From positions 1,705,501 through 1,769,500 of the forward strand of contig NZ_CP081966.1 in the NCBI RefSeq assembly GCF_019823065.1: a stretch of DNA of 64,000 nucleotides, given 5' to 3'. The notes under the pieces are model-generated. The model had not been told where the DNA came from and searched no databases. It was given only the letters and a program-made list of their open reading frames with translations. Position numbers and translations under genes: made by a program. Positions 11,385 through 33,456 of this stretch are shown piece by piece. This DNA is from Pseudomonas mosselii (GTDB lineage Bacteria > Pseudomonadota > Gammaproteobacteria > Pseudomonadales > Pseudomonadaceae). Positions within the stretch are counted from its first letter, which is position 1; each line of letters starts with the position of its first letter.

Positions 11385-12599
11385 TTAATGCCGCACTGAA
11401 CCATGCGGGTCGATGACGTACTTGTATGCAGAACCCGCGTCGAACTCTTTGTACGCGGCGGGCGCGTCTTCGAGCTTGATGAACTTAGTGTTCATCATCG
11501 GCGAAAGGTAAGGCATGCGATCGTTCAGTATCGCCCGCATTAACGCGTGGTTGTAGTTGGCCGTCGGAGATTGACCAGCCGACATTCGCGGCGACTTGAT
11601 CCAGGCGTTGGACCATTCCAGATCCATATGGCCTTTCTTGGCTTTCGGGTCTTTCGAGATCGGGTTTGCGCAGTACACACCGACCGTACTGGTCATTCCG
11701 CCGAAGCGGACATATTTGAGCATTGCGTTGGTAACAGCGCTCTCCACGATCTTGTCAGCCTCCGCGCCAAACCCGCGGCAGTCCACACCAACATAGTCGA
11801 TGACGCGATCCACCTCCCTGTGCCCGGTAATGCGTTCGAGATGCTCCTCGATCGGCACGCCGTCGGAAAGGTTGATGGTTTCCACGCCGTGTGGCTTGAG
11901 AAGGTCCAGCCGCTCTTGAATGTAATCGGCAACGATGATGGCGCCTGCACCCAGAAGTCTGGCGCAGGCGGCACCCGCTCTGCCGACCGGCCCGGCACCG
12001 AAGATCAGGATGTTTTCGCCGACGACGTAGGCCGGCGCGGCTGGCCAGTCTGGGCCAGCGAACCCATGGAAAGCTGTGGGTAATACGTCAGAGAGAAGGG
12101 TCAGGTCGCGGATTTTTTCCATGGCGGCATCCTTGTCAGGGAAGCGAAGGAGATTGAAATCCGCATACGGTACGAAGAGATAATCACCTTGCCCCCCCGT
12201 CCAGCCACCGAGGTTGAACCCGTAGGCTCCGCAGTCGATTTCGGGGTTGGTGTTCTCGCATACATCGGAGCGCATATGCTTGCAGTTGTAGCAACGCCCA
12301 CACCCCACATTGAAGGGAACGGAAACGATGTCGCCCTTCTTCACGACTTCGACGTCTGATCCCACTTCGATCACTTCGCCGGTCATTTCATGGCCCATGG
12401 TCATTCCCTTGGGAACAGCAAACGAACCGCGATAAATGTGAAGGTCGCTGCCACAGATATTTGTGGTAACTATTTTGAGGATAGCGCCATGGGGTGCGCT
12501 TTTCCCTTGAGGGGTTATCAGCTCTGGAAATTTGAAGGTGTTGACCTTCATTTCCAAGGGCTTCTCGAAAGTCACGATTCGGTTACCGGTCGGAGTCAT
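11385..12599 (-). CDS. fdhA: Glutathione-independent formaldehyde dehydrogenase
   Basis: Zinc- and NAD-dependent medium-chain dehydrogenase of 404 residues that oxidises formaldehyde to formate without glutathione, as in P. putida FdhA. The catalytic-zinc Cys is in TTNICGSDLHIYRG (about 46), followed by GHEMTGEVIEVG. The structural zinc loop CGRCYNCKHMRSDVC is complete. The Rossmann motif FGAGPVGRAGAACARLLGAG supports the tightly held NAD of this nicotinoprotein group. I chose the ATG at 12599 (MTPTGNRIVTFEKP) over one 30 bases upstream. A conserved promoter/dyad block lies 120-200 bases upstream and is repeated before frmR, linking this gene to the glutathione-dependent operon. A LysR gene lies upstream on the same strand. 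Confidence 0.93.
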   Translation of the reverse strand: MTPTGNRIVTFEKPLEMKVNTFKFPELITPQGKSAPHGAILKIVTTNICGSDLHIYRGSFAVPKGMTMGHEMTGEVIEVGSDVEVVKKGDIVSVPFNVGCGRCYNCKHMRSDVCENTNPEIDCGAYGFNLGGWTGGQGDYLFVPYADFNLLRFPDKDAAMEKIRDLTLLSDVLPTAFHGFAGPDWPAAPAYVVGENILIFGAGPVGRAGAACARLLGAGAIIVADYIQERLDLLKPHGVETINLSDGVPIEEHLERITGHREVDRVIDYVGVDCRGFGAEADKIVESAVTNAMLKYVRFGGMTSTVGVYCANPISKDPKAKKGHMDLEWSNAWIKSPRMSAGQSPTANYNHALMRAILNDRMPYLSPMMNTKFIKLEDAPAAYKEFDAGSAYKYVIDPHGSVRH

Positions 12600-13065
12600 T
12601 TCGTCACCTCTGTGCGTTAATGTTTCCATCTTCTAAATCGAAGTGGGAAACGAAATTTACCGCTGTCAAGAAGAACGATCGTGGTACTGCCTAGCCGTTG
12701 GCCGCGTCTCCTTCTGCGGTCTTGACAGCATCGGATCAAGCTCAGAAGTGGTCAAACTGGAATAATCTATGTACAGATAGGCACGATCTATCTACGCGGG
12801 ATCGTCGAGCCGTGCTCGTCTCCTAGCCGGGAGAGGGCAACGATCATCGCTACATCGCGCCTCCTAGCTTGATCTAGGAACAGTCAGCTCGACCCAGCGA
12901 GACATGAGGAGGCCGCATGCAGCAGGTACTCCTGTCCCCCGAGTTGCCCCTGGACCTAGTGGCCTTCGATGGGTTGCTCAGCACGTGGCGCCTGTTAGCG
13001 GCGCACACGGCATGCCTGCAATCTTCGCCTGGTTGAAGCAATACAGAGTTGCTCTTCAAGACTCG
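12600..13065. other. fdhA promoter region
   Basis: A 466-base gap between lysR and fdhA. It contains the conserved promoter block 12721-12796. The remainder shows no gene I can support. Confidence 0.6.
12721..12796 (-). promoter_or_regulatory. Shared formaldehyde promoter block, copy 1 (fdhA)
   Basis: Read toward fdhA, it holds the dyad AGATAG-N7-CTATCT (12775-12793), 19 bases, TTGACC (-35, 12755-12750), a 17-base spacer and GATGCT (-10, 12732-12727). Copy 2 at 21626-21699 upstream of frmR has the same dyad, the same 19-base and 17-base spacings and identical -35 and -10 hexamers. The inner ATAG-N7-CTAT is a classic T-N11-A LysR-type site. The start codon is about 120 bases downstream of the predicted start point. 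Confidence 0.75.
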
Positions 13066-14007
13066 CTATTTCAGGGGGCTTTGAGATGAGTCTGCTTTGG
13101 GCTGGAACCGACGATGGATCGATATAACGGATTGAAGAGTGGCGGCGAGTTCGGGGGTGTGCACCATTTCGAGCAATGCACGCGATGACGGTGCCTCGAA
13201 CGCATTTTTCCCAGCAACGAATCCGACATTTGAGTGCGACATTGGTCCATTGATTGCGATTGCGTGGAGATTTGGAATGTGCGCGAGTTGGCCGGCGAGA
13301 GATTGCGGAAGAACTGCCGAATATTTTCCTGTCGCCACGTGTGCCGATAGCACGTCAATTGAATCAGTGCGAATAGTCTGCGCGGTACATTGCATCAGCC
13401 TATCTTGAATGGGTTCAGGTACTGCCGAGTTCAGCACGCAGAGTTGTCTATTGAGAACATGGTCCCACGTTGTGCTTCGGGGTTGCTGTGTTCTCGCGGC
13501 GTGAAAAAGGAAAATGCGTTCACGGTACAGAAGGTGAGTATCGAAGTCTTCCCCTGGGATATCCTCCAAATGCATGAGTGCGATATCCAAATTGTTTTCT
13601 CGAATCGCCTGTAGCAGGGAAGAAGCGCCGGAAACCAGAACTGATTGTTGAAGTAAGGGTGTTTTTTCAGCAAGGGCGATGCTTAATGTGGGCGCTACAC
13701 CGGCAGTTCCTGGGAGTATCCCTAGCCGGAATTGCCCCTCTATACCTCGCCGTAGTGCGGAGAGTTCTCGCTCCAGCCCTTTGCAGTCGTCATACATCTG
13801 CTGAGCCCAAGACAGTACGCGCATCCCTTCAGAAGTGAGGCCGTCATAGCGTCGGCCATGACGCACGATCTCGACACCCATGTCTTCCTCCAATTGCTTA
13901 ATGCCCGCGGAGAGTGTCGGCTGAGAAACATTGCAGCTTTTGGCCGCGTTGCCAAAATGGCCTTCACGGTGCAAAGCAAGCAAGTATTCAAAGTTTCTTA
14001 CGATCAT
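13066..14007 (-). CDS. LysR-family regulator, candidate formaldehyde-regulon activator
   Basis: A 313-residue LysR protein. HTH in the first 60 residues (MIVRNFEYLLALHREGHFGN, then CNVSQPTLSAGIKQLEEDMG), and an OxyR/CysB-like effector domain from about 90 (GQFRLGILPGTAGVAPTLSI). It precedes fdhA on the same strand with a 466-base gap that includes the LTTR-like dyad AGATAG-N7-CTATCT. The proximity makes it the best candidate for binding that dyad and the matching one before frmR. The effector domain has several Cys residues (for example LCVLNS and LMQCTAQ) that could in principle react with an aldehyde; this is speculation. Its base composition is more AT-rich than the conjugation genes. Confidence 0.85.
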   Translation of the reverse strand: MIVRNFEYLLALHREGHFGNAAKSCNVSQPTLSAGIKQLEEDMGVEIVRHGRRYDGLTSEGMRVLSWAQQMYDDCKGLERELSALRRGIEGQFRLGILPGTAGVAPTLSIALAEKTPLLQQSVLVSGASSLLQAIRENNLDIALMHLEDIPGEDFDTHLLYRERIFLFHAARTQQPRSTTWDHVLNRQLCVLNSAVPEPIQDRLMQCTAQTIRTDSIDVLSAHVATGKYSAVLPQSLAGQLAHIPNLHAIAINGPMSHSNVGFVAGKNAFEAPSSRALLEMVHTPELAATLQSVISIHRRFQPKADSSQSPLK

Positions 14008-14387: not shown

Positions 14388-15582
14388 GGGAAATCCTGAA
14401 AAAGACTTCCTGATTTGGCAAAATCCCCGGACACCAATCGCCGAGCTTTTCGATGATGAAACAAATGACCTTCGCCGATGCCGAGTACGCCGGTAAGCGC
14501 AAGCAGACCCGCAAGGAGCTGTTCCTGATAGAGATGGATCGGGTCGTACCCTGGGAGGGTTTGATTGCTCTGATCAAACCTCATTACCCAAAGGGCGAAG
14601 GGGGCCGTCCAGCCTATCCGCTGATGGCGATGCTGCGGATTCATCTAATGCAGAACTGGTTCGGTTACAGCGATCCGGCGATGGAAGAGGCGCTGTACGA
14701 GACGACGATCCTGCGCCAGTTTTCCGGTCTGAGCCTGGAGCGAATCCCGGATGAAACCACCATCCTCAACTTCCGTCGCCTGCTGGAAAAGCATGAGTTG
14801 GCCACCGGTATTCTCGGCGTGATCAATGGCTATTTGGGCGACCGTGGCTTGTCACTGCGACAAGGCACCATCGTCGATGCCACTCTGATTCATGCGCCCA
14901 GTTCGACCAAGAACAAGGACGGCAAACGCGACCCGGAAATGCATCAGACCAAGAAGGGCAACCAGTATTACTTCGGTGCCAAAGCTCACATTGGTGTCGA
15001 CGATGAGTCCGGGCTTGTGCACAGCGTGGTGGTCACTGCGGCCAACGTCGCGGACGTAACCCAAGTCGACAAACTGCTGCACGGTGGTGAGAACGTGGTC
15101 TGCGCTGATGCGGGCTATACCGGTGTAGAGAAGCGTGAAGAGCATGAGGGGCGCCAAGTCATCTGGCAGATTGCAGCCCGGCGCAGCACTTACAAAAAGC
15201 ACGGTAACCGCAGCGCGTTATACAAAGCGATACGTAAGATCGAAAGAGCCAAGGCCCAGGTTCGCTCCAAGGTTGAGCATCCATTTCGGGTGATCAAGCG
15301 CCAGTTTGGTTATACGAAAGTGCGCTTCCGAGGCTTGGTGAAAAACACTGCTCAGATGGTGACGCTGTTCGCCCTGTCGAACATTTGGATGGCGCGTCGA
15401 CATTTGCTCTCCAATGCAGGAGAGGTGCGTCCGTGAAGAGTGAAGTGACTGCTGCGAGGTGCTTGCAGCGGCAAAAAAGGCTGAAATAGACGGCAGGTTT
15501 GACCGGGATTTGAGCGGCTACCGTTTTTTGAAAGTGTCGATGGCGAAGTAGCCGGAAAACAGGGGCTACTTCAGACCATCCC
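14388..15582 (+). mobile_element. IS5-family insertion sequence
   Basis: About 1195 bp, the usual IS5 length. The proposed ends carry imperfect inverted repeats: GGGAAATCCTGAAAAAGAC at the left against GGGATGGTCTGAAGTAGCC read inward from the right. I found no target duplication, so the exact ends are approximate. Confidence 0.65.
14453..15436 (+). CDS. IS5-family transposase
   Basis: DDE transposase of 327 residues. It contains the DUF772 N-terminal domain (RPAYPLMAMLRIHLMQNWFG) and the DDE region: Asp in GTIVDATLIHAPSS (about 142), Asp in NVVCADAGYTG (about 217), and the C-terminal Y-(2)-R-(3)-E-(6)-K-like stretch around RSKVEHPFRVIKRQFGYTKV. The reading frame is intact, so the element may still be active. 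It separates the fdhA/lysR block from the DUF488/uvrB block, both of which could have arrived with or been rearranged by IS activity. Confidence 0.92.
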   Translation: MMKQMTFADAEYAGKRKQTRKELFLIEMDRVVPWEGLIALIKPHYPKGEGGRPAYPLMAMLRIHLMQNWFGYSDPAMEEALYETTILRQFSGLSLERIPDETTILNFRRLLEKHELATGILGVINGYLGDRGLSLRQGTIVDATLIHAPSSTKNKDGKRDPEMHQTKKGNQYYFGAKAHIGVDDESGLVHSVVVTAANVADVTQVDKLLHGGENVVCADAGYTGVEKREEHEGRQVIWQIAARRSTYKKHGNRSALYKAIRKIERAKAQVRSKVEHPFRVIKRQFGYTKVRFRGLVKNTAQMVTLFALSNIWMARRHLLSNAGEVRP

Positions 15583-15688
15583 TAGTACACCATGCCCCCA
15601 GCGTTTCCTTAGCTGCGATTGACGGGCATGCCTGGCGGTAGCTCAATAACAGCCATTTATGGATGAAGGAACGAGGGGAATAAGGCAG

Positions 15689-16120
15689 ATGAAGATATTC
15701 ACGATTGGATTCACTAAGACCTCCGCGCGGTCCTTCTTCACCAAGTTAAGTGCTTCTGGTGCCAAGCGCCTTGTCGATGTTCGCCTGAATAATGTTTCGC
15801 AATTGGCCGGGTTCGCTAAACGCGAGGATCTTCGATATTTTTCCGAGGCGTTGTGTGGGATGGAATATGAACATCTACCAGCACTTGCTCCAACCAAAGA
15901 CATGTTCGAGGAATATAAAATAAAAGGGGGAGATTGGGATATCTACGCCAGTAAATTTCTGGATTTAATGTCGTCCCGAAAGATTGAGTCAATCGATAAA
16001 GAAAAGATTGATAACAGTTGCCTGCTTTGCAGCGAAGACAAGCCCCATCACTGCCATCGGAGGCTAGTGGCCGAGTACCTTGCAGGCAAATGGCCGAATG
16101 TTGAGATCGTGCATCTTTAG
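15689..16120 (+). CDS. DUF488 family protein
   Basis: A 143-residue protein of the DUF488 family. It has the N-terminal MKIFTIGFTKTSARSFF strand-helix, a central DVRLNN segment and the C-terminal hallmark CLLCSEDKPHHCHRRLVAEY with clustered Cys/His. The biochemical function is unknown; family members often sit near DNA-repair or restriction genes. The ATG at 15689 is chosen because it has AAGGCAG upstream and because family members start with K-I-x-T-I-G. The gene is clearly more AT-rich than its ICE surroundings, a sign of separate acquisition. It lies immediately downstream of the IS5 element and upstream of uvrB. Confidence 0.85.
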   Translation: MKIFTIGFTKTSARSFFTKLSASGAKRLVDVRLNNVSQLAGFAKREDLRYFSEALCGMEYEHLPALAPTKDMFEEYKIKGGDWDIYASKFLDLMSSRKIESIDKEKIDNSCLLCSEDKPHHCHRRLVAEYLAGKWPNVEIVHL

Positions 16121-16495: not shown

Positions 16496-18472
16496 ATGTC
16501 AACCGGTATGTTTATTCTGCACTCCAACTATACGCCGGCGGGGGACCAGCCAGAGGCGATCGCGCGGCTGCTGTCGGACATAGAAGAAGGTGCGACGCAC
16601 CAGACGCTGAAAGGTATCACCGGCTCAGGTAAGACCTTCACCATGGCCAATGTGATTCATCGTCTGAAGCGGCCCACGTTGATCTTGGCTCCCAACAAGA
16701 CGTTGACCGCGCAGCTCTATAGTGAAATGAAGCACTTCTTTCCTGAGAATGCGGTCGAGTACTTCGTTTCGTATTACGACTATTTTCAGCCCGAGATCTA
16801 TATGCCGGGCACCGATCGTTTCATACCGAAGGACTCGGCCATCAATGACCACCTTGAGCGCCTGCGCCTGTCCACGACCAAATCCTTGATTGAGCGTCGT
16901 GACGTGATCGTCGTCGCTTCGGTGTCTTCAATCTACGGCCTGGGTGATCCAGATGCATATCGAGCGCTACAGATCGCTCTGTCCCCTGGGGTCAAACTAA
17001 ACCAGAGAGAGCTAATTCGTCGCTTGGCTTTGCTGCAATATGATCGCACGGAGCGTACGCTCAAGCGTGCAACGTTCCGCGTCCAAGGTGATGTGATTGA
17101 CATTTTCCCCGCTGATTCCGAGTACAGGGCGGTTCGGGTGGAACTGTTGGATGACACTGTTGCGTCTGTCCAATGGATGGACCCTGTTACTGGCAAGACG
17201 TTGGGAGAGATAGACCATTATTTGGTTTCGCCAAAAACGCTTTTCGCACCGCCCACGAACAAAATAGATTCTGCATCCAAAAAGATACTCGCTGATATGG
17301 AAGAGCGGGTTGCCGAGCTGAACAGGAATAATCGCTTGGTCGAGGCAAACAGACTGTACGAGCGGATCACGCATGACGTGGAAATGATGCGCGAGGTCGG
17401 CTATTGCTCGGGGATGGAGAATTATTCCTGCTACTTCAGCGACCGAGACGCAGCTTCTCCTCCGATCACGTTGCTGGATTATTTGCCGAAAGACGGGCTG
17501 CTGTTCGTCGATGAATCTCATGTCATGGTGCCACAGATATCCGCAATGTACCGGGGGGATCAGGCGCGCAAGGACACGCTGATCGATTACGGGTTCCGTT
17601 TGCCTTCATCGAAGAACAACCGGCCATTGAACTTTGACGAGTTCGAGAAGGTCAAGCCTCAGACCATCTTTGTTTCCGCTACTCCGGGCGACTACGAGCT
17701 GAGGGTGTCGAAAGGCAGGGTTGTCGAACAGGTTATCAGGCCAACGGGACTGCTTGACCCCAAGGTTGAAGTGCGGAAAGCGGATGGATACATAGATGAC
17801 CTGCTTGCCGAAATATCGAAGTGCGTGAAGAGAAAGAATCGAGTGCTTGTGACTACGCTGACGAAGGTCAGTGCAGAAGAGCTAACGGATTTCTTGACGG
17901 ACAACGGGATTCGAGCGCGCTACATGCATTCGGACATAAAAGCGGAGGATCGTGTTGAGATCATCAATGGCCTGCGCGCAGGAGAGTTCGATGTTTTGAT
18001 TGGGATTAGTCTTTTGCGCGAAGGGCTGGATATTCCAGAGGCATCATTGGTTGCCATTCTCGATGCAGACCGTGCAGGGTTCTTGCGTTCGGCCCATGCG
18101 CTCATTCAGATGATCGGTCGAGTCGCTCGGAATGAAAACGGCAAGGCGATCTTGTACGCCGACGCGGTGACGCCGGCGATGAAGCAGGCGATCGATGAGA
18201 CCAATAGGCGCAGGCAGCTTCAAATTGCCTTTAACGAGGAAAATGGGATTTCTCCAGCCTCGTCTGTGCGAAAACTAGCAGGGGAAGAGACGAATACGGA
18301 GGAGCCCACCGTTCATTCCGAGGCTTTCTGCGAGAACTTGTCCGACCTTTGCGATCAGATCACTGCCAAGGAACAGCAGCTACTCGAATTTACCGATACC
18401 GGTGACGAGCAGCGCGTCGAAGACATTCGTCATCAGTTGGATGGGTTGTACCGGCAATTCATTTACATCTAA
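16496..18472 (+). CDS. uvrB: UvrB-type excinuclease subunit (accessory copy)
   Basis: Full-length UvrB, 658 residues. The Walker A motif GITGSGKTFTMA is at about 40-51. The damage-probing beta-hairpin SYYDYFQPEIYMPGTDRF is at about 92-109. The helicase motifs VDESHV, SATPGDYEL, TTLTKVSAEELT and QMIGRVARNENGKA are all present, and the last 45 residues form the UVR/UvrC-binding domain. UvrB verifies DNA lesions and recruits UvrC in nucleotide excision repair. The host chromosome should have its own copy, so this one is mobile cargo. It is more AT-rich than the conjugation genes. Carriage with formaldehyde enzymes suggests repair of aldehyde adducts. The island's UvrA-like protein lacks the UvrB-binding domain, so this UvrB presumably works with chromosomal UvrA. 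Confidence 0.95.
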   Translation: MSTGMFILHSNYTPAGDQPEAIARLLSDIEEGATHQTLKGITGSGKTFTMANVIHRLKRPTLILAPNKTLTAQLYSEMKHFFPENAVEYFVSYYDYFQPEIYMPGTDRFIPKDSAINDHLERLRLSTTKSLIERRDVIVVASVSSIYGLGDPDAYRALQIALSPGVKLNQRELIRRLALLQYDRTERTLKRATFRVQGDVIDIFPADSEYRAVRVELLDDTVASVQWMDPVTGKTLGEIDHYLVSPKTLFAPPTNKIDSASKKILADMEERVAELNRNNRLVEANRLYERITHDVEMMREVGYCSGMENYSCYFSDRDAASPPITLLDYLPKDGLLFVDESHVMVPQISAMYRGDQARKDTLIDYGFRLPSSKNNRPLNFDEFEKVKPQTIFVSATPGDYELRVSKGRVVEQVIRPTGLLDPKVEVRKADGYIDDLLAEISKCVKRKNRVLVTTLTKVSAEELTDFLTDNGIRARYMHSDIKAEDRVEIINGLRAGEFDVLIGISLLREGLDIPEASLVAILDADRAGFLRSAHALIQMIGRVARNENGKAILYADAVTPAMKQAIDETNRRRQLQIAFNEENGISPASSVRKLAGEETNTEEPTVHSEAFCENLSDLCDQITAKEQQLLEFTDTGDEQRVEDIRHQLDGLYRQFIYI

Positions 18473-18622: not shown

Positions 18623-19528
18623 TCAGCGCAAAGCTGGCAACGATCCAACGGCGACCAGCATTTCATCAAATACCGCTCGAACCCTTCCCGGAATGGGGCC
18701 ACGCTGAGGCCGATAGACGTACAACCCCCATGCCGGAGGTTCTTCGTTCTCCAGCACTCGCACGAGCTTCCCGCTGGCAATGTAGGGGGCGGCCATGTAG
18801 TCCGCCAGTTGCGCGAACGCGATCCCGGCCAGCGCCGCTCCCATTTCCATGTCGGCATTGTCTGCGACGAGAGTGGGTGCGGTAGGTGTCCACTGGCGTC
18901 CCGCCTTGAAGTGCCAAGGCCAGGGACGGCCGGTATTGATATCCAAGGCCACGGTAACTGGCAGGCTGCTTAGCGCATCGATGTTTGCAGGTACGCCCAC
19001 TTTCTTGATCAGGCGCGGAGCGGCAACGATGGGGAGTCTCATGTCGGCGGCCTTGCGTGCGACGAAGCGGCTATCGCGCATGAATCCGACCCTGATCCCG
19101 ACGTCAATCCCTTCGTCAACCGTATTGCTGATGCGATCGGACAGGCGCACATCCAGCGTGATGCCGGGATGGCGCGCGGCCACGCGCTCCAGTGCCGGTA
19201 GCACCGCTCTGGTGCCCAAGCTGTGCGGTGCGGTGATGCGAACCGTACCGGACAGAGAGGCCTGCTGGTCGGAGCCAGGCGTTCGCCACAGATCCTCGAA
19301 CCGCTCCAATGCGGGGCGCACTTGGTCTAGCAGCCCTTCGCCGAAGGCGGTGATGCGCACCTGGCGCGTGCTTCGATGAAACAACACCTCGCCGTAGTGT
19401 TGCTCCAGTTGCTGGATGGCACGGGTTACACCTTGCGGAGAAGTCCCCAGCCGGACGGCCGCATCGCGAAAACTGCTGCTTTCGGCCGCCACCCGAAAGA
19501 TGCGCAGTAGTTCCATTTCCTTGTTCAT
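18623..19528 (-). CDS. LysR-family transcriptional regulator
   Basis: A 301-residue LysR of the DsdC/AaeR-like subgroup. HTH in MELLRIFRVAAESSSFRDAA and then TSPQGVTRAIQQLEQHYG; effector domain from about 90 (GTVRITAPHSLGTRAVLPAL). It is divergent from the NTF2/GNAT/nitrilase operon over 154 bases that contain a T-N11-A dyad at 19568-19582. Control of that operon is the likely role. Confidence 0.88.
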   Translation of the reverse strand: MNKEMELLRIFRVAAESSSFRDAAVRLGTSPQGVTRAIQQLEQHYGEVLFHRSTRQVRITAFGEGLLDQVRPALERFEDLWRTPGSDQQASLSGTVRITAPHSLGTRAVLPALERVAARHPGITLDVRLSDRISNTVDEGIDVGIRVGFMRDSRFVARKAADMRLPIVAAPRLIKKVGVPANIDALSSLPVTVALDINTGRPWPWHFKAGRQWTPTAPTLVADNADMEMGAALAGIAFAQLADYMAAPYIASGKLVRVLENEEPPAWGLYVYRPQRGPIPGRVRAVFDEMLVAVGSLPALR

Positions 19529-19562
19529 GACGCACGCCTTATGGCCGATTTCGCTGCTCGTT

Positions 19563-19602
19563 AATTGTTCCAGATTGTGGAATTATAAAATCGCAACAAT
19601 TC
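19563..19602. promoter_or_regulatory. LysR-type operator between divergent genes
   Basis: TTCC-N7-GGAA (19568-19582) fits a T-N11-A LysR box. A wider inverted repeat, AATTGTT...AACAATT, spans 19563-19601. The position midway between lysR and the NTF2 gene supports dual autoregulation and activation. Confidence 0.55.
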
Positions 19603-19682
19603 CATATACAAGGGAGGCGCGGTTGCCCAGACTGACAACACCCCGGAATGCTCCGCTCCGAACAACCCAATAAGGAACGCGA

Positions 19683-20090: not shown

Positions 20091-20091
20091 A

Positions 20092-22180: not shown

Positions 22181-23314
<1,134 letters not shown>

Positions 23315-25331: not shown

Positions 25332-26162
25332 ATGGAACGCATCGAACATCACGCCAGCTTTGATGGTTGGCAGGACGTTTATCAGCATGAATCCACGACG
25401 CTCGGTTGCACGATGAAAGTCGGCGTCTATCTGCCTCCGCAGGCACAGCACGGCAAGGTGCCGGTGCTGTACTGGCTTTCAGGCCTCACCTGCACCGAGC
25501 AGAACTTCATCACCAAGTCCGCCGTCCAGCGCTACGCAGCCGAACATGGCATTGCCGTCGTCGCGCCCGATAGCAGCGCTCGCGGCGAAGGCGTTGCCGA
25601 CGATCCCGCCTATGACCTCGGACAGGGGGCAGGTTTCTACGTCAACGCCACGCAGGAACCCTGGGCTGCGAATCATCGGATGTATGACTACGTGGTGCAG
25701 GAACTACCGGCGCTGATCGAGGCCCACTTTCCCGTGACAGCGGAGCGGAGCATCAGCGGCCATTCCATGGGGGGACACGGTGCTCTGGTCATCGCCCTGC
25801 GCAACCCGGGCCGTTATCGAAGCGTCTCGGCCTTCTCGCCCATCGTCGCGCCCACCCAGGTTCCCTGGGGACACAAGGCCTTCGAGGCGTACCTGGGCAG
25901 CGACCGGGAGGCGTGGAAGCAGTACGACACCGTGGAGCTGATTCGCACCGTGCAGGAGCGTCTGCCGCTGCTGGTGGATCAGGGTTTGGGCGACGAGTTC
26001 CTGGAGAGTCAGCTTCAGCCCGATCTGCTGCGCAAGGCCTGCGACGAGACGGGGCACCCGCTCACGTTGAATCTGCGCCCAGGCTACGACCACAGCTACT
26101 ACTTCATTGCCAGTTTCATTGGCGAGCATATGGCACACCACGCATCGGCGCTGAAACGCTGA
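25332..26162 (+). CDS. frmB: S-formylglutathione hydrolase
   Basis: Esterase-D family alpha/beta hydrolase of 276 residues that hydrolyses S-formylglutathione to formate and glutathione, completing the glutathione pathway. Ser145 lies in the nucleophile elbow SGHSMGGHGAL, with Asp221 in GLGDEF and His254 in YDHSYYF. The oxyanion region SGLTCTEQNF is also conserved. AGGAG lies just upstream of the ATG. No formate dehydrogenase is seen in the window, so formate must be handled by the chromosome or exported. Confidence 0.94.
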   Translation: MERIEHHASFDGWQDVYQHESTTLGCTMKVGVYLPPQAQHGKVPVLYWLSGLTCTEQNFITKSAVQRYAAEHGIAVVAPDSSARGEGVADDPAYDLGQGAGFYVNATQEPWAANHRMYDYVVQELPALIEAHFPVTAERSISGHSMGGHGALVIALRNPGRYRSVSAFSPIVAPTQVPWGHKAFEAYLGSDREAWKQYDTVELIRTVQERLPLLVDQGLGDEFLESQLQPDLLRKACDETGHPLTLNLRPGYDHSYYFIASFIGEHMAHHASALKR

Positions 26163-26180
26163 GAGAGAGGAGATCAGGTC

Positions 26181-27488
26181 ATGACAAAGACCTCCAAAAA
26201 CCGACATCACGTCGTCATTATCGGAGCGGGCTTCGGCGGGATCGAGGTTGCCAACCAGCTTGCTGGTGCCGAGGTCGATGTGACGATCATCGACCGGCGC
26301 AATCATCACCTGTTCCAGCCGCTGCTTTACCAGGTCGCAGGGGCATCTCTCTCGACATCCGAGATCGCCTGGCCTATTCGCTATCTATTCCGAAATCGCC
26401 CGGAAGTGAACACCTTGATGGCGGAAGTGGAAGGTATCGACCAGGACGCGCGTCAGGTCATTCTCAACAATGGCTCGCGCCAAACCTACGACACGCTCGT
26501 ACTCGCGACAGGTGCTACCCATGCCTATTTCGGACACGACGAATGGGGGGCTTTCGCGCCGGGGTTGAAGACGCTGGAAGATGCCACGACCATTCGAGGC
26601 CGAATCCTCGCGGCTTTCGAGGAGGCCGAGCGCACGAGCGATCCTCAGCAGCGTGCCGCGCTGCAGACGTTCGTCATCATCGGTGGTGGTCCCACCGGGG
26701 TTGAATTGGCCGGGACCATCGCCGAGCTTGCACGAGACACGCTGGCGCGTGACTTCCGCTCGATCGACCCGAGCACGTCCCGGGTTGTACTGATCGAGGC
26801 GGGCCCGCGTCTGTTGTCCGTCTTTCCAGAGGATCTTTCGGCCTATACGCGCCAGGCACTCGAAAAGCTCGGGGTCGAGGTCGTGCTGGGTACGCCGGTC
26901 ACCGAATGCTCGGCCGACGGCGTGGTGTATGGCGGCAAGCCTCTTTCGGCCAAGACCATCGTTTGGGCCGCCGGCGTCCAGGCGTCTCCCGCGGCTCGCT
27001 GGTTGGGTGCTGCGTCTGATCGTGCGGGTCGAGTGGTCGTTGGTCCCGACCTGACGGTGGCCGGTCGCCCGGAGGTCTTCGCCATCGGCGATACCGCCTC
27101 GTGCACCATGGCTGATGGGAAGCCCGTACCGGGCATCGCCCCCGCCGCCAAACAGCAAGGCAAGTACGTCGCCAACCTCATTGGACGGCGTTTGAAAGGC
27201 AAGCCCGCTGACGGGCCTTTCAAATACCGGCATCAGGGGAACCTGGCCACCATCGGCCGCAGCCTGGCCGTAATTGACATGGGGCGGGTTAAGCTGCGTG
27301 GAGCCTTTGCGTGGTGGATCTGGAAGCTCGCGCATATCTACTTTCTGATCGGTACGCGAAATCGTCTCAGCGTCGCGTTGAGCTGGGTATGGAACCATAG
27401 CATCGGCTACCGCGGCTCTCGCATCATCATGCATGCGATTAGCGACAAAGAGCCCACGGCGTTGGATAAATCCGGCTCTCTGGATTGA
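26181..27488 (+). CDS. NADH dehydrogenase, type II-like FAD oxidoreductase
   Basis: A 435-residue flavoprotein with two Rossmann motifs: FAD site VVIIGAGFGGIEVANQLAG (about 11-29) and NADH site FVIIGGGPTGVELAGTIAEL (about 163-182). EVFAIGDTA near 298 and the C-terminal amphipathic/membrane segment WWIWKLAHIYFLIGTRNR are typical of NDH-2. NDH-2 passes electrons from NADH to quinone without pumping protons. In this operon it could re-oxidise the NADH made by AdhC and FdhA; this is inference. It follows frmB by 18 bases. Confidence 0.87.
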   Translation: MTKTSKNRHHVVIIGAGFGGIEVANQLAGAEVDVTIIDRRNHHLFQPLLYQVAGASLSTSEIAWPIRYLFRNRPEVNTLMAEVEGIDQDARQVILNNGSRQTYDTLVLATGATHAYFGHDEWGAFAPGLKTLEDATTIRGRILAAFEEAERTSDPQQRAALQTFVIIGGGPTGVELAGTIAELARDTLARDFRSIDPSTSRVVLIEAGPRLLSVFPEDLSAYTRQALEKLGVEVVLGTPVTECSADGVVYGGKPLSAKTIVWAAGVQASPAARWLGAASDRAGRVVVGPDLTVAGRPEVFAIGDTASCTMADGKPVPGIAPAAKQQGKYVANLIGRRLKGKPADGPFKYRHQGNLATIGRSLAVIDMGRVKLRGAFAWWIWKLAHIYFLIGTRNRLSVALSWVWNHSIGYRGSRIIMHAISDKEPTALDKSGSLD

Positions 27489-27539: not shown

Positions 27540-28853
27540 TTGACCGATCTATTCACGACAAAGCCCAAGCCTCCCTTGGCCGAACTCCTGCGGCCCAAGA
27601 CGCTGGATGAATTCGTCGGGCAACGGCACTTGCTCGGCCCCGGCAAGCCGCTTCGTCTCGCGTTCGAGGCGGGCAAGTTGCACTCGTTCATCCTCTGGGG
27701 GCCGCCAGGCGTGGGCAAGACCACCCTGGGGCGCCTGGCCGCCAGTGCGACCGACAGCCGATTCATCGCCATCTCGGCCGTGCTTGCCGGGGTGAAGGAC
27801 ATCCGGCAAGCCATCGACGAGGCCCAGGCAGAACTGGGCAACCATGGTCGATCGACGGTGCTTTTCGTCGATGAGATCCATCGCTTCAACAAGGCGCAGC
27901 AGGATGCCCTACTGCCCCATGTCGAGTCGGGGCTCCTGACCCTGGTGGGGGGAACGACCGAGCATCCGGGGCTGGCGGTCAATTCCGCTCTGCTCTCACG
28001 CGCGCAGGTCTATACCCTCGAACCGCTGTCCGGCGACGAACTGAACCAGCTCTACGAACGCGCACTGCCGCATCTCCAGGGCGTCACGTTGGACGCGGAC
28101 GCGCTGGATCTGCTCAAGGGCTTTGCCGATGGCGATGGCAGGCGCTTCCTCAATCTGCTTGAGCAGGTGACGAATGCTGCGTCGGGCGCGGGCAAGGCCG
28201 TGGTCGATGGCGAGTTTGCCAAACTGTCCACCAGCCCATCACTGCGCAGGTTCGACAAGGGCGGCGACGAGTTCTACTGGCAGCTCTCCGCCTTCCACAA
28301 GTCGCTGCGGGGCTCCGACCCCGACGCGGCCCTGTACTGGCTGGCCCGCATCCTCGACGGCAGCGGCGACGTCAGCCAGGTGACGCGCCGCATGATCGTG
28401 GTGGCCAGCGAAGACATCGGCAATGCCGACCCGCAGGCGCTGCAACTGGCGCTCAATGCCGCGCTGGCTTATGAGAGGCTGGGTTCCCCCGAAGGCGAAA
28501 TACCGATTGCCCACGCGGCGACCTACCTTGCTGCCGCCCCCAAGTCGAACGCTGCCTATGCCGCCTGGAACAAGGCGAAGGCCTTCGTCAAGAACAGCGG
28601 CTCCCTGCCTGTGCCTCTCCATCTTCGCAATGCGCCGACGAAGCTGATGCAGCAGATGGGGTATCACGAAGGCTACCGCTATGCCCATGACGAGCCCAAC
28701 GGCTATGCCGCTGGGCAAAGCTACTTTCCCGAGGGCGTGGCGCGGCCGGGCTGGTATCAGCCAACGGACAGAGGTGTTGAGCGCAGGCTGGGAGAAAGGC
28801 TTACTTGGCTGCGCTCGCTGGATGATGGGACGCTGCCAGAGGCGGACGCCTGA
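27540..28853 (+). CDS. rarA: RarA/MgsA-type AAA+ recombination factor
   Basis: Clamp-loader-like AAA+ ATPase of 437 residues with TTG start at 27540 (MTDLFTTKPKPPLAELLRPK) preceded by GGGAGAGG. Walker A WGPPGVGKTTLGRLA (about 58-72), Walker B VLFVDEIHRFNKAQQD, and the C-terminal tetramerisation region with ARSSNAAY-type segment (PKSNAAYAAWNKAKAFV). RarA acts at stalled replication forks. As mobile cargo with uvrA-like and uvrB genes it fits tolerance of DNA-protein crosslinks. The host should have its own copy. Confidence 0.92.
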   Translation: MTDLFTTKPKPPLAELLRPKTLDEFVGQRHLLGPGKPLRLAFEAGKLHSFILWGPPGVGKTTLGRLAASATDSRFIAISAVLAGVKDIRQAIDEAQAELGNHGRSTVLFVDEIHRFNKAQQDALLPHVESGLLTLVGGTTEHPGLAVNSALLSRAQVYTLEPLSGDELNQLYERALPHLQGVTLDADALDLLKGFADGDGRRFLNLLEQVTNAASGAGKAVVDGEFAKLSTSPSLRRFDKGGDEFYWQLSAFHKSLRGSDPDAALYWLARILDGSGDVSQVTRRMIVVASEDIGNADPQALQLALNAALAYERLGSPEGEIPIAHAATYLAAAPKSNAAYAAWNKAKAFVKNSGSLPVPLHLRNAPTKLMQQMGYHEGYRYAHDEPNGYAAGQSYFPEGVARPGWYQPTDRGVERRLGERLTWLRSLDDGTLPEADA

Positions 28854-28888
28854 CCGGTCGCCTCCGAAACCGGCTCATCGCGACTTCA

Positions 28889-28942
28889 CGAACTACAGGA
28901 ACAGGATAAGAACATGTCAGCCACTTCTTTCGGTGCATCCTC
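28889..28942 (+). repeat. Leader repeat A (nhaA-dsbA start)
   Basis: CGAACTAC, AGGATAAGAACATG and the following codons to TTCTTTCGG and ATCCTC recur at 30786-30833 before the uvrA-like gene. Copy A has an extra AGGAAC. The repeat covers the ribosome site, start codon and first ten codons. Confidence 0.8.
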
Positions 28943-30779
28943 GGCGAATATCAGCCGGGGACGCGTTGCCCGCTATCTGCGCACGGAGTCTGGTGCTGCG
29001 GTGCTGCTGGTGATCGTCACGGTCGTGGCGCTGGCGTGGGCGAACTCGCCGCTATCCGATGCCTATTTCGCGTTGTGGCACCTGGACGTCGGGTTTGACT
29101 TCGGGCCGCTGGGCATGCACATGGATCTGCATCACTGGGTCAACGACGGCCTGATGGTGGTCTTCTTCTTCCTGATCGGCCTGGAGGTGCGTCAGGAGTT
29201 CGCCCACGGATCGCTCAGGGACCGCAGCCGTGCCCGTCTCGCTCTGATCGCGGGTGTCGCAGGTGTCGTGCTTCCCGCGCTGGTGTATGTCCTGATCGTG
29301 GGGCTGGCCGGAAGTGAAGGCCTGCACGGGTGGGGGGCGGTGGTCGGCACCGATACGGCATTCATGCTGGGCACCCTGGCGATCGTCGGCCCGCGGCTAT
29401 CCGGTCAGTTGCGCGTGTTCCTGCTCACCCTGACCGTGGTCGATGACTTCCTCGCCGTGTCCATCATCGGCATCGTCTATAGCGAGGAGATTCGGATCGT
29501 CCCGTTGTTGATCGCCCTCGCCAGTCTCGTTGCGTTGTGGTGGCTAGGGCGCACCCGCCAGTGGCGGGCAATGCCGTATGTGCTGATCGTGATCGTGCTG
29601 TGGCTCGCAACCGTGTACTCCGGCATCCATGCCTCTCTCGCCGGGATGGCCGCGGGGCTGCTGATCCCCGCCTACGCGACGCAACGTCACAAGGTCGTCG
29701 CGGCAAAACAACTGTTCCGCGACTTCTGGCAGTCTCCGAGTGCCGCATCGGCCCGCGCGGTGGACTGCGGGCTGTCCCGGGGTATCTCGGTGAACGAGCG
29801 ATTGCACGAGTTCCTGCGGCTGCCGACGGCGCTGCTGATCGTGCCGGTGTTCGCCTTGGCGAACGCCGGAGTGGACGTGCGTGGCGGGCTGCTCGCCGAG
29901 GCCTTCGGCTCGCCAGTCACGTGGGGCGTCATCGCAGGGCTCGTGCTCGGCAAGCTCGTGGGCATCGGGCTCATCACGCTCGTCGCCGTCCGTCTCGGCC
30001 TGGGCCGGCTGCCCGAGGGCGTCGGGGTGGGGAGCGTGTTCGGTGGTGCGGCACTGTCCGGGATCGGCTTCACCGTGTCGCTGCTGATCATCGGGCTCGC
30101 GTTCGGCACGACCTCCGACCTGGGCCGCCAGGCGACGGTCGGCGTGCTCGTGTCGATGGTGTTCGCCACGTTGCTCGGGTGGCTGATCTTCAAGGTCGCC
30201 GCCAAGCGGTGGGGTGAGAAGACCGCTGACCTGCCGATGGTGCTTGAGCCACCGGTCGATCCGGAGATCGATCACATCCGCGGGCCGGAGGACGCCCAGC
30301 TCACACTCGTCGAGTACGTGGACTTCGAGTGCGCGTACTGTGCGCACGCGACCGGTTCTTGGGACGATCTGCGTGCCCACTTCGGGGACGACCTGCGGTA
30401 TGTGGTGCGCCATCTGCCGCACCACCCGCACGGGCCGATCGCCGCGCGGGCGTCCGAGGCAGCGGCGAACCAGGGGATGTTCTGGCCGTGGCTGGACTTC
30501 GTGTTCACCCGTCAGCATGCGCTGGAGCGCGAGCATCTGATCGGCTACGCCGCCGAGCTTGGGCTCGACGTCGAACGGTTCATCGCGGATCTCGACAGCA
30601 CCGCGGTGATCGAGCGTGTCGAGCGCGACCTCGCCAGTGCGGTCGCCAGCGGTGCGCACGCCACGCCGACGTTCTTCGTCGAGGGTCGTCGTCTGCGCGG
30701 CAGCTACGACGCCCGCACTGTCACCGCGGCGCTCGAAGCCAGTCGCCGCGGCCCACGAACTCAGGAAGTCCCGTCCTGA
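28914..30779 (+). CDS. nhaA: NhaA Na+/H+ antiporter fused to a DsbA-like domain
   Basis: A 621-residue fusion. Residues 1-430 form an NhaA antiporter of about 12 membrane helices. The paired ion-binding Asp residues are in TLTVVDDFLAVSII, and HHWVNDGLMVVFFFLIGLE is an NhaA hallmark. Residues 450-610 are a thioredoxin/DsbA-like domain (LTLVEYVDFECAYC, then GAHATPTFFVEG) with Cys473-Ala-Tyr-Cys476 and the cis-Pro in ATPTF. This architecture is most familiar to me from Actinobacteria, and the codon bias is very GC-rich, suggesting distant transfer. The fusion is preceded by a leader sequence repeated before the next gene. Confidence 0.9.
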   Translation: MSATSFGASSANISRGRVARYLRTESGAAVLLVIVTVVALAWANSPLSDAYFALWHLDVGFDFGPLGMHMDLHHWVNDGLMVVFFFLIGLEVRQEFAHGSLRDRSRARLALIAGVAGVVLPALVYVLIVGLAGSEGLHGWGAVVGTDTAFMLGTLAIVGPRLSGQLRVFLLTLTVVDDFLAVSIIGIVYSEEIRIVPLLIALASLVALWWLGRTRQWRAMPYVLIVIVLWLATVYSGIHASLAGMAAGLLIPAYATQRHKVVAAKQLFRDFWQSPSAASARAVDCGLSRGISVNERLHEFLRLPTALLIVPVFALANAGVDVRGGLLAEAFGSPVTWGVIAGLVLGKLVGIGLITLVAVRLGLGRLPEGVGVGSVFGGAALSGIGFTVSLLIIGLAFGTTSDLGRQATVGVLVSMVFATLLGWLIFKVAAKRWGEKTADLPMVLEPPVDPEIDHIRGPEDAQLTLVEYVDFECAYCAHATGSWDDLRAHFGDDLRYVVRHLPHHPHGPIAARASEAAANQGMFWPWLDFVFTRQHALEREHLIGYAAELGLDVERFIADLDSTAVIERVERDLASAVASGAHATPTFFVEGRRLRGSYDARTVTAALEASRRGPRTQEVPS

Positions 30780-30785
30780 GCGGGA

Positions 30786-30833
30786 CGAACTACAGGATAA
30801 GAACATGCCAAACAATTCTTTCGGTGAATCCTC
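30786..30833 (+). repeat. Leader repeat B (uvrA-like start)
   Basis: Second copy of the leader at 28889-28942: CGAACTACAGGATAAGAACA then TG and the first codons, ending TTCTTTCGGTGAATCCTC. It lacks one AGGAAC unit relative to copy A. Confidence 0.8.
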
Positions 30834-33456
30834 TTGTACCGCTGCGGCCAGCGGCCTCGTGCAGGTGCGCGGGGCGCGCGAGAACAACCTCAAAGAGGTG
30901 GACGTTTCCATCCCGCGTAACGCGCTCGTGGTGTTCTCGGGAGTCTCCGGCTCCGGGAAGTCCTCGCTGGCCTTCGGCACCATCTATGCCGAGGCTCAGC
31001 GACGTTACTTCGAGTCGGTGGCCCCCTATGCGCGGCGATTGATCGACCAGGCCGGCGTGCCCGACGTCGATGCGATCGACGGCCTCCCGCCGGCGGTGGC
31101 GCTGCAGCAGCAGCGTGGCTCCAGCAACGCGCGTTCCTCCGTGGGCAGTGTGACCACCCTGTCCAGCCTGGTGCGGATGATGTATTCGCGCGCCGGCGCC
31201 TACCCAGCCAACCAGCCGATGCTGTACGCCGAGGATTTTTCGCCCAACACGCCGCAGGGAGCGTGCCCGACCTGCCACGGCCTGGGCCATGTGTACGAGG
31301 TGACCGAGGCCATCATGGTGCCCGATCCCTCCCTGAGCATCCGCGAGCGGGCGATCGCCTCCTGGCCCCCCGCCTGGCAAGGCCAGAACCTGCGCGACAT
31401 CCTGGTCAGCATGGGCTACGACGTTGACCGACCGTGGAAGGACCTGCCGAAGAAGGATCGCGACTGGATTCTGTTCACCGAGGAAACACCGACGGTGCCG
31501 GTGTACGCCGGCTTCACGCCCGCCGAGACCCGCGCCGCGCTCAAGCGCAAGATGGAGCCGAGCTACATGGGCACCTTCACCGGTGCTCGCCGGTATGTGC
31601 TGCACACCTTTGCCAACACCCAGAGCGCGCTGATGAGAAAGCGCGTGTCCCGGTTCATGGAGGGCAAGCCGTGCCCCACCTGCCACGGCAAGCGGCTCAA
31701 GCCCGAGGCGTTGTCGGTCACCTTCGCCGGCGTGGACATCGGCGCGTTCATGCAGATGCCGCTGGACCAGTTGGCGGCCTTGCTCGAACCCATTGCCCAG
31801 GGTGATTTCCGCGCCCATGCAGCGGGGGCGGCTACGGACAAGGAAGCGACCCGGCGCGACCGTGCCCAACGCGCGGCCTCCGGTCGTGCCGTACACGCGG
31901 TATCGCCCGACGTGCGCCGCACCTCCGCGCTGTCGGAAGAAAAGCGCCTCGCCGCGCAGCGCCTGGCCGGTGGCGTGATGGCACGCCTGCGCCAACTGCG
32001 CGGGCTGGGCTTGGGCTACCTGACGCTGGACCGGGCCACGCCGACGCTTTCGGCTGGCGAGTTGCAACGCCTGCGGCTGGCTACGCAATTGAGTTCCCTG
32101 CTGTTCGGCGTCGTGTACGTGCTCGACGAGCCCTCGGCGGGGCTGCACCCCTCCGACAGCCAGGCCCTGTACGACGCACTCGATCGGCTGCGCGACGCAG
32201 GCAACTCGGTGTTCGTGGTGGAGCACGACCTGGAACTGATGCGCCGCGCGCAATGGCTAGTGGATGTCGGGCCGGATGCCGGGGAGCGTGGCGGCCGCGT
32301 GCTCTACAGTGGCGAGCCGGATGGCCTGCGCAAGATTGCCGAATCGCGCACCGCCCGTTACCTGTTCGACGAGATCCCCGCGCCGGGGAGCCGGGCACGC
32401 GAAGCGATCGGCTGGCTGGAGCTGCAGGGCGTCCACCGCCACAACCTGCATGGCGTGGACGCACGCATTCCGCTGGGCGTGCTGACGGCCGTCACCGGCA
32501 TCTCCGGCTCGGGCAAGTCCAGCCTCGTCGCGCAGGCCCTGCCGGAGCTGGTGCTGCTGCACCTGGGCCACGAGCCGGAAGACGATGTAGCCGAAAGCGC
32601 CACCAGCGAAGGGCCGGCAGTGATCGAAGCGACCGGCGGCCATCTGGCGGGCGACGTGGACGCCGTACAGCGTCTGGTGCAGGTGGACCAGAAACCGATC
32701 GGGCGCACGCCGCGGTCGAACCTAGCCACCTACACGGGCCTGTTCGACCATGTGCGCAAGCTGTTCGCTGCCACGCCCGATGCGCGACGCCGCCGCTACG
32801 ATGCCGGACGGTTCTCGTTCAACGTCGCCAAGGGGCGCTGCGAGACCTGCGAGGGCGAGGGCTTCGTCAGCGTGGAACTGCTGTTCATGCCCAGCGTGTA
32901 CGCGCCGTGCCCGACGTGCCATGGCGCACGCTACAACGAGGCCACGCTGAAGGTGCAATGGAACGGGCGCAACATCGCCGAGGTGCTGCAGATGACCGTG
33001 GACGAAGCCAGCGAATTCTTCGCGGGTGAAGACGCTGTGGCAAGGCCACTGCAACTGCTGCGCGATATCGGACTGGGCTACCTGCGCCTGGGGCAACCGG
33101 CCACCGAGCTTTCCGGTGGCGAGGCGCAGCGTATCAAGCTGGCGACCGAGCTTCAGCGCAGCCAGCGCGGCCGAAGCCTGTACGTGCTCGACGAGCCGAC
33201 TACCGGGCTGCATGCGTCGGACGCCGACCGGCTGCTGGTGCAGTTGCAGCGCCTGGTCGATGCCGGCAATACCGTAGTGATGATCGAACACGATATGCGC
33301 GCGGTGGCCCAGGCCGATTGGGTGATCGACGTGGGGCCTGGTGCAGGCGCTGCCGGCGGCAGCATCGTGGTGGCGGGCTCCCCTCAGCAGGTGGCCCGAA
33401 CGTCTGGCAGCAGAACCGCTCCGTTCCTTGCACAGGAGTTGGCGCGGGCCGAGTAG
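30805..33456 (+). CDS. UvrA2-like ABC ATPase lacking the UvrB-binding domain
   Basis: An 883-residue UvrA homologue with two ABC modules: Walker A GVSGSGKSSLAFGT (about 45) and GISGSGKSSLVAQ (about 567), signatures LSAGELQRLRLA and LSGGEAQRIKLA, and Walker B VLDEPSAGLHP and VLDEPTTGLH. Zinc-module cysteines are present (ACPTCHGLGH, PCPTCHGKRL, CETCEGEGF, PCPTCHGARY). Compared with E. coli UvrA, the sequence goes directly from MMYSRAG to DFSPNTPQGACPTC, omitting the roughly 120-130 residues that hold the UvrB-binding domain. This is the class III/UvrA2 layout. It may bind damaged DNA or, as in drug-producer proteins, protect against an agent. It is the last gene of the frm run. Confidence 0.9.
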   Translation: MPNNSFGESSCTAAASGLVQVRGARENNLKEVDVSIPRNALVVFSGVSGSGKSSLAFGTIYAEAQRRYFESVAPYARRLIDQAGVPDVDAIDGLPPAVALQQQRGSSNARSSVGSVTTLSSLVRMMYSRAGAYPANQPMLYAEDFSPNTPQGACPTCHGLGHVYEVTEAIMVPDPSLSIRERAIASWPPAWQGQNLRDILVSMGYDVDRPWKDLPKKDRDWILFTEETPTVPVYAGFTPAETRAALKRKMEPSYMGTFTGARRYVLHTFANTQSALMRKRVSRFMEGKPCPTCHGKRLKPEALSVTFAGVDIGAFMQMPLDQLAALLEPIAQGDFRAHAAGAATDKEATRRDRAQRAASGRAVHAVSPDVRRTSALSEEKRLAAQRLAGGVMARLRQLRGLGLGYLTLDRATPTLSAGELQRLRLATQLSSLLFGVVYVLDEPSAGLHPSDSQALYDALDRLRDAGNSVFVVEHDLELMRRAQWLVDVGPDAGERGGRVLYSGEPDGLRKIAESRTARYLFDEIPAPGSRAREAIGWLELQGVHRHNLHGVDARIPLGVLTAVTGISGSGKSSLVAQALPELVLLHLGHEPEDDVAESATSEGPAVIEATGGHLAGDVDAVQRLVQVDQKPIGRTPRSNLATYTGLFDHVRKLFAATPDARRRRYDAGRFSFNVAKGRCETCEGEGFVSVELLFMPSVYAPCPTCHGARYNEATLKVQWNGRNIAEVLQMTVDEASEFFAGEDAVARPLQLLRDIGLGYLRLGQPATELSGGEAQRIKLATELQRSQRGRSLYVLDEPTTGLHASDADRLLVQLQRLVDAGNTVVMIEHDMRAVAQADWVIDVGPGAGAAGGSIVVAGSPQQVARTSGSRTAPFLAQELARAE

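Follow-up and report, generated by a model that had tools for sequence, protein, structure and literature searches.

Genes for formaldehyde resistance and Uvr genes on integrative and conjugative elements (ICEs) were already mentioned together in 2020 (PMC7466150, PMC7156236). One of the closest described systems is VR4 of ICEPni1 from Pseudomonas nitroreducens HBP-1, an ICE of the ICEclc type that sits at a tRNA-Gly gene and was transferred to P. putida; by its description, not by alignment, it lists the same kinds of genes as the locus studied here, namely FrmA, FrmB, FdhA, DyP, nitrilase, RarA, UvrA and UvrB, and in the available parts of that article it is presented partly as a mosaic, without an analysis of co-occurrence, regulation or repair and without a formaldehyde phenotype (PMC7466150). 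ICE cluster C30, found as identical stretches in P. aeruginosa and Serratia marcescens, likewise joins formaldehyde-resistance and Uvr genes, which receive one sentence and a figure legend in the portions of the source at hand, with no function proposed there (PMC7156236). On plasmids, frmA homologues occur in formaldehyde-resistant Escherichia coli; pVU3695 is cited among them as a case of plasmid-borne FrmA/AdhC tied to resistance, and plasmids of this type have frmA and frmB "interspersed with other genes" (PMC13029678). The frm genes have also been placed within a Tn4401 insertion (PMC11610580), while the available text of PMC8879981 contains nothing on the subject. In the literature seen, as far as its text was available, detoxification is given as the basis of formaldehyde resistance on plasmids, and the open-licence literature searched yielded, in the same partial coverage, no analysis of formaldehyde and Uvr genes as one unit. 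Here we describe such a set of genes in Pseudomonas mosselii, between positions 11385 and 33456 of a stretch of 64,000 nucleotides (contig NZ_CP081966.1 of assembly GCF_019823065.1, C1:1705501-1769500 of a 6.35-Mb genome in two contigs), which is called the window below.

We put the probability at roughly 0.7 that this run is a mobile formaldehyde-tolerance module with linked specialised DNA-damage genes. In the mechanism that we propose, FrmR would sense formaldehyde and release frmR-adhC-frmB, the AdhC-FrmB route would oxidise formaldehyde through glutathione to formate, and in those copies that have it FdhA would add a route independent of glutathione, with NDH-2 probably re-oxidising the resulting NADH. 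UvrA2 and a variant UvrB, joined by RarA where it is present, would act on formaldehyde DNA damage such as adducts, DNA-protein crosslinks and stalled forks, as a specialised branch and not a second ordinary UvrABC. The detoxification side is already known, and it is the repair part for which we infer a function: formaldehyde induction of the repair genes and their DNA substrates are predicted from sequence comparison, as are the roles that NDH-2 (NADH recycling), DUF3422, VOC and NhaA-DsbA would have in the module. Should the travelling unit bring specialised DNA-damage functions, UvrA2, a family without a settled role to our knowledge, would gain a testable substrate and inducer, a UvrB subfamily without the UVR motif would come to light, and the module would be relevant to bacterial survival of formaldehyde biocides and methenamine.

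Gene content of the run

Scans with Pfam and NCBIfam located every gene named in an earlier note, made from the sequence alone, at or near the place where it had been read. From frmR to uvrA2 the genes lie on a single strand with gaps of 18-182 bp. The formaldehyde-responsive repressor FrmR (21870-22145, plus strand; NF008464, 155.9 bits against a cut-off of 133) has in its translation both Pro2 and Cys35, the sensing residues of FrmR (PMC5016687). Behind it on the same strand follow AdhC, an S-(hydroxymethyl)glutathione dehydrogenase (22205-23314; TIGR02818, 725.8 bits, cut-off 543.95), a VOC-family protein (23358-23756; PF00903), a membrane-anchored DUF3422 protein (23939-25273; PF11902, 485 bits), the S-formylglutathione hydrolase FrmB/FghA (25332-26162; TIGR02821, 418.7 bits, cut-off 281.7), an NDH-2-type NADH dehydrogenase (26181-27488; PF07992, PF22366), a RarA (MgsA) AAA+ ATPase of a mobile lineage (27540-28853; PF12002), an NhaA-DsbA fusion (28914-30779; PF06965 at 20-425, PF13462 at 453-608), and a class II UvrA, UvrA2 (30805-33456), that lacks the stretch of the UvrB-binding domain and has 2vf7 as its best match in the PDB. 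The variant uvrB lies apart, ahead of frmR (16496-18472, plus strand); its product has no UVR motif and ends in the tail YRQFIYI.

The gene that had been read as a glutathione-independent fdhA is present (11385-12629, minus strand, ADH domains), and at 425.3 bits it misses the TIGR02819 equivalog cut-off of 636.95, hence we call it only FdhA-like. It is 82-92% identical to copies in four related loci (L011, L136, L139, L153) and 46% identical to the copy on the host chromosome; in Aeromonas and Shinella the annotation of the gene reads glutathione-independent formaldehyde dehydrogenase. A LysR regulator stands by it (13066-14007, minus strand), and a 62% homologue of this regulator adjoins fdhA in Shinella. 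In line with the earlier note, no formate dehydrogenase was found among the open reading frames scanned, a part of those in the window; the host chromosome encodes one (926 bits, cut-off 666).

The term "DUF3422" is absent from the open-licence literature searched. The structural model of this protein (pLDDT 83.7) resembles PDB entries in a weak CorA/ZntB-like architecture, with matches dominated by generic helices, and no function was assigned to it from structure.

Recurrence on plasmids and ICEs

Across alpha-, beta- and gamma-proteobacteria, plasmids and ICEs carry much of this gene set in varied arrangements. Its recurring members are frmR, adhC, VOC, DUF3422, frmB, NDH-2, uvrB and UvrA2, and the rarer rarA, NhaA-DsbA and fdhA are optional. 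Aeromonas caviae p1 has a near-identical ICE stretch (95% covered, 98.3% identical). A Comamonas plasmid carries DUF488, uvrB, LysR, adhC, VOC, DUF3422, frmB, NDH-2, a ZIP transporter gene, rarA and uvrA2, and a plasmid of the alpha-proteobacterium Shinella has rarA, nhaA-dsbA, frmR, LysR, fdhA, adhC, VOC, frmB, NDH-2, DUF3422 and uvrB, with no uvrA2 found within the stretch viewed. On E. coli IncX5 plasmids, uvrB is divergent from frmR-adhC-VOC-DUF3422-frmB-NDH-2-uvrA2-DUF488; Moraxella has gshA-frmR-adhC-gfa-DUF3422-frmB-NDH-2-uvrA2; sphingomonads and Methylobacterium XJLW share the order frmR-LysR-fdhA-adhC-VOC-frmB-NDH-2-DUF3422-uvrB-uvrA2-DyP (frmR where the stretch extended far enough); and in P. 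aeruginosa pBJ86 and a Stutzerimonas plasmid, frmR-adhC-VOC-DUF3422 is followed farther on by uvrA2 beside nhaA-dsbA. Further copies occur in Sphingomonas/Sphingobium, Phaeobacter and Acinetobacter. The earlier note had taken the whole run for one transferable unit: much of the set is indeed found together, rearranged, across these diverse plasmids and ICEs, and the part of the claim that falls away concerns the SnoaL-GNAT-nitrilase genes and an insertion sequence, which are not core.

Searches of 72,556 plasmid records and of individual proteins give an idea of how often these genes travel together. The uvrB-uvrA2 block of the E. coli type is covered to 80% or more in 84 of the records and in 12 of 5,426 E. 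coli genomes; at the same coverage there are seven records of the sphingomonad type and, among the matches listed, seven of the Moraxella type (12 matches listed, with 110 further records). Many of these plasmid records are near-identical. The set is found on plasmids of Enterobacterales and Acinetobacter, some of them from clinical isolates. Among the best 60 of 185 plasmid records with UvrB, 36 reach at least 70% identity, two of these being short fragments, and module genes lie within ~11 kb of uvrB in all 20 of the 36 that were checked. For plasmid UvrA2, formaldehyde genes are nearby in five of seven records hand-picked for spread. On a Kozakia plasmid, the neighbours of UvrA2 are fdhA and the pair hxlA-hxlB, which represents a third route for formaldehyde. 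Methylobacterium XJLW, where the module is on a conjugative plasmid, is reported to degrade formaldehyde and to tolerate 60 g/L (PMC10138955, PMC4377440, both as available in part), which we regard as an association and not as proof because Methylobacterium is a genus of methylotrophs.

FrmR-type operator sites

The published FrmR operator is of the type ATAC-N9-GTAT (PMC5146963). One site of this type is present in the window, ATACTATGGGGGAGTAT at 21814-21830 (plus strand), which starts 56 bp before frmR. Across 17 module loci (369 kb) we counted 27 sites, against nine in the 110 control loci (2.12 Mb), an enrichment of ~17-fold; first-order Markov shuffles of 18 loci led us to expect ~3.6 matches on both strands, that is ~1.8 sites. 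For this count L009, L130 and L142 were omitted as near copies, tandem sites were counted singly, and control loci were those longer than 8 kb. A later scan, outside the main count, gave 0, 0, 0, 2, 3 and 3 sites in L153, L154, L155, L156, L158 and L159, respectively. All but one of the 27 boxes are outside module genes, mostly ahead of frmR or adhC.

Some of the boxes precede repair genes. In two Pseudomonas loci, a second frmR whose product retains Pro2 and Cys35 heads a repair operon, with a box 54 bp before frmR2-DUF3422-uvrA2 (L131) and 53 bp before frmR2-DUF3422-rarA-uvrA2 (L132). In Shinella (L011) a box lies between dksA and rarA, 252 bp from rarA, and in L137 a DksA-like coding stretch separates a box from uvrB, 327 bp further on. 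Boxes are also found ahead of ZIP-gshA (L014, L138) and of frmR-cydAB (L138).

These sites bear on whether formaldehyde is the target at all. The module could instead be directed at other aldehydes or electrophiles, such as methylglyoxal, formaldehyde-releasing biocides or drugs, or at general oxidative stress, the formaldehyde enzymes being one part of a broad kit. Such a breadth would suit the VOC gene, conserved at no less than 84% identity in 18 of 23 related loci, the LLM and alkene reductases, SDR, DyP and bd oxidase genes in some copies (in P. aeruginosa and Stutzerimonas, an alkene reductase and an LLM oxidoreductase are encoded close to the module), the metalworking fluid from which the Comamonas copy came, and the Acinetobacter/Moraxella copies (L138 11310-17028; L014 2282-6082), which also carry cydAB (of which L014 shows cydB), a ZIP transporter gene and gshA. 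We nevertheless hold it to be very improbable: the regulator scores above the cut-off for FrmR, the boxes match the operator type published for it, AdhC and FghA exceed their equivalog cut-offs, and the Kozakia UvrA2 adjoins the formaldehyde-fixing hxlAB.

Linkage in controls and gene histories

FrmR, AdhC, FrmB and FdhA were found near RarA, DUF3422 or UvrA2 genes outside the module in none of 116 loci (~2.15 Mb), a homologue being called at 45% identity over half the length. The control comprised 79 RarA loci, some on short contigs (the scan kept 80 loci, one of which is the module copy L016), the best 20 of 55 non-window places for DUF3422, and 17 hand-picked UvrA2 loci. Among 199 Pseudomonas genomes, the four with a UvrA2 of at least 89% identity (G000, G009, G102, G105) all have it amid module genes; among 97 plasmid records with RarA, six reach 90% or more, all of them module plasmids, and the remainder stay at or below 63%. 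A chance mixture of these genes, which the earlier note had named as an outcome that would undo its reading, is therefore unlikely in view of the rearranged recurrence, the 0/116 controls and the FrmR-type boxes on the repair operons of relatives.

Phylogenies suggest that the module versions of RarA, UvrA2 and DUF3422 belong to lineages separate from those of the chromosomal homologues sampled, except for a single stray in UvrA2 and another in DUF3422. They were quick LG+G4 trees with no bootstrap, in which sequences with internal stops were skipped and near-duplicate, short or host-paralogue loci omitted (L001-L009, L013, L130, L142, L144-L146, L148-L152). Module RarA forms one clade of five module copies, the window and four others, against 80 other RarAs (support 100). 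Module UvrA2 is monophyletic only with L126 included, and module DUF3422 only with L096 included; once the long rows L154 and L155 are taken out, UvrA2 forms one clade with support 100. Mirror-distance correlations between module genes range from 0.35 to 0.95 and, given the shared history of the copies, do not serve as proof here. On the host chromosome, the homologues of module genes are 60% (uvrB), 57% (rarA), 72% (adhC) and 46% (fdhA) identical, and no second DUF3422 was found there; the host's second UvrA match ranks below the rows listed, which makes it probably the canonical UvrA.

The idea that UvrA2 was recruited twice was dropped, as a single module clade was rejected (p-AU, the P value of the approximately unbiased test, 3e-6) only because L126 falls inside it. 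Separate recruitment of DUF3422 had the same outcome, L096 being the stray.

A number of observations weigh against the module as we read it. UvrA2 is found in 17 Pseudomonas loci without formaldehyde genes; one of these, L126 in genome G193, has a UvrA2 80-84% identical to module UvrA2 and no module neighbours (an amino-acid permease, a fatty-acid hydroxylase and a TPR protein are encoded nearby), and a single UvrA2 origin with L126 counted is not rejected (p-AU 0.154). No formaldehyde genes are near UvrA2 on the Pantoea and Psychrobacter plasmids, and five of the 12 Moraxella-type matches listed, from Acinetobacter and Moraxella, cover the uvrA2 part only. RarA, NhaA-DsbA and fdhA are missing in many copies, and the vehicles swap DNA, which leaves the module copies non-independent. 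As to regulation, the scan of the window found no box before uvrB, DUF3422 or uvrA2, only frmR-adhC having one; an intergenic box is absent in four of the 17 module loci (L010, L012, L013, L140), and Kozakia L153 has none. Finally, a strong hairpin between VOC and DUF3422 (23858-23892, plus strand), a 13-bp perfect inverted repeat resembling a terminator or attenuator, splits frmR-adhC-VOC from DUF3422-uvrA2.

Several of these points fit an explanation in which only frmR-adhC-frmB, with fdhA, serve formaldehyde, and the genes for repair, redox functions and transport ride along as general stress cargo that gathers on conjugative elements in wastewater and hospitals. Cargo of this kind would account for UvrA2 apart from formaldehyde genes and in the uvrA2-only matches, and for L096 (4345-12778), where no formaldehyde genes were found and the neighbours of a DUF3422 gene at 79% encode a Clp-family ATPase, a luciferase-like monooxygenase and a Na+/H+ exchanger; the ICE in the window also bears nitrilase and aminoglycoside phosphotransferase genes, and a second recruitment of UvrA2 could not be shown. 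We consider this explanation unlikely, since much of the gene set persists through rearrangement, formaldehyde genes occur in none of the control loci, and FrmR boxes with a second frmR head the uvrA2 and rarA operons of L131 and L132. A formaldehyde-tolerance module with linked DNA-damage genes thus remains our preferred reading.

In Kozakia L153 (3267-12528), there is also a DUF3422 match at 58% that the gene table does not include, and UvrA2 has a gene for a GIY-YIG nuclease close by.

A UvrA2 and a UvrB with missing domains

The module UvrA2 is collinear with the class II UvrA of Deinococcus radiodurans (2vf7, 1206 bits), which likewise has no UvrB-binding stretch; it differs from that protein in being mobile and linked to formaldehyde operons. 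Aligned with canonical UvrA, it skips from residue 139 to 291, and residues 140-290 have no counterpart; we take residues ~140-290 of canonical UvrA to be the UvrB-binding domain. The module UvrB retains the helicase motifs and the UvrA-interaction domain PF17757, as in canonical UvrABC, and aligns to most solved UvrB chains only up to about residue 592. The UVR motif PF02151, present in the host UvrB (39 bits), is absent from it and, according to the precomputed domain column, from all 120 UvrB homologues among the matches listed. The UVR motif binds UvrC, and no uvrC is named in the module-locus annotation tables viewed. Among the listed homologues of at least 650 residues, 95 of 115 end in YRQFI and the rest mostly in close variants; the source names of this subfamily include Bacteroidota, Photobacterium, Shewanella and Planctomicrobium. 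Another family, PF27431, also appears in the precomputed domain column of the listed UvrB homologues.

Excision repair removes small DNA-protein crosslinks, and the earlier note had invoked nucleotide excision repair for the run. A reading as ordinary UvrABC repair is unlikely because the module UvrA2 is without the UvrB-binding stretch and its UvrB without the UVR motif. A bolder proposal, which we offer tentatively and with the odds somewhat against it, is a dedicated formaldehyde-induced pathway in which a class II UvrA and a UvrB whose FC...YRQFIY tail replaces the UVR motif would clear crosslinks, bypassing the normal UvrA-UvrB and UvrB-UvrC contacts, and which mobile elements would have carried, along with its control by FrmR, through the proteobacteria. 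Neither the consistent linkage nor FrmR boxes on repair operons nor a UVR-less UvrB subfamily was found described in the open-licence literature searched, as far as its text could be seen.

The mobile element and neighbouring genes

The earlier note had placed the run on a mobile island, and the element proves to be an ICE of ~85 kb at a tRNA-Gly gene. A tRNA run of Glu, Gly, Glu and Gly ends at 5626 with tRNA-Gly(gcc) (5551-5626, plus strand; ARAGORN), the final 18 bp of which (5609-5626) form one ICE end, and the tyrosine integrase lies downstream (5811-7796, plus strand; PF13356, PF22022, PF00589). The 18-mer is repeated at genome positions 1796443-1796460 and 1796599-1796616, the latter copy being within another tRNA-Gly; these positions give the length of ~85 kb, of which the window covers the first 58 kb. 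The MobH (TraI_2) relaxase (33537-35531, minus strand; PF07514, PF07515), also annotated as MobH in Aeromonas, follows the run. With an integrase beside tRNA-Gly, a flanking 18-bp repeat and a MobH relaxase, the element has the features of the ICEclc family, as judged from these features and not from direct alignment to ICEclc.

Further genes of the island lie around the core. A DUF488 gene (15659-16120, plus strand; PF04343), an optional member, has 55-86% copies in L010, L011, L015 and L138. LysR, SnoaL-like, GNAT and nitrilase genes (18623-21587) stand between uvrB and frmR, and SnoaL-GNAT-nitrilase occurs in only two of the 23 related loci (L009 Aeromonas, L016 P. profundi). A DyP-type peroxidase gene (7834-8814, minus strand; PF20628, PF04261) may also be an optional module member, as its product is ~50% identical over 91-94% to those of genes in sphingomonad and Methylobacterium module loci (L136, L139, L142, L158); with these values, the view of the window DyP as a stranger to the sphingomonad DyP was dropped.

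The transposase gene at 14453-15436 (DDE_Tnp_1, DUF772), between LysR and DUF488, is absent in the Aeromonas copy and is therefore probably a recent insertion. At 37546-42876, two aminoglycoside phosphotransferase (APH family) genes, presumably strA/strB-like, lie with a resolvase and a Tn3-family transposase gene ahead of a TraG_N gene. This APH-resolvase-Tn3 block is missing from the Aeromonas copy (L009), where DUF3742 adjoins TraG_N. The TraG_N frame of the window (42909-44249) has 446 codons compared with 506 in L009, and its Pfam match begins at profile position 54.

Other copies have neighbours of their own. In Sphingobium (L139 13799-15698) and Methylobacterium (L158 18629-20528) the module ends in DyP followed by an encapsulin shell gene, possibly a peroxidase nanocompartment that travels with the formaldehyde genes. 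A gene with an adenylate/guanylate-cyclase domain lies beside the Shinella (L011 11530-12738) and Phaeobacter (L156 1497-2687) copies, and a DksA/TraR-type gene beside those of Shinella, Phaeobacter and Methylobacterium.

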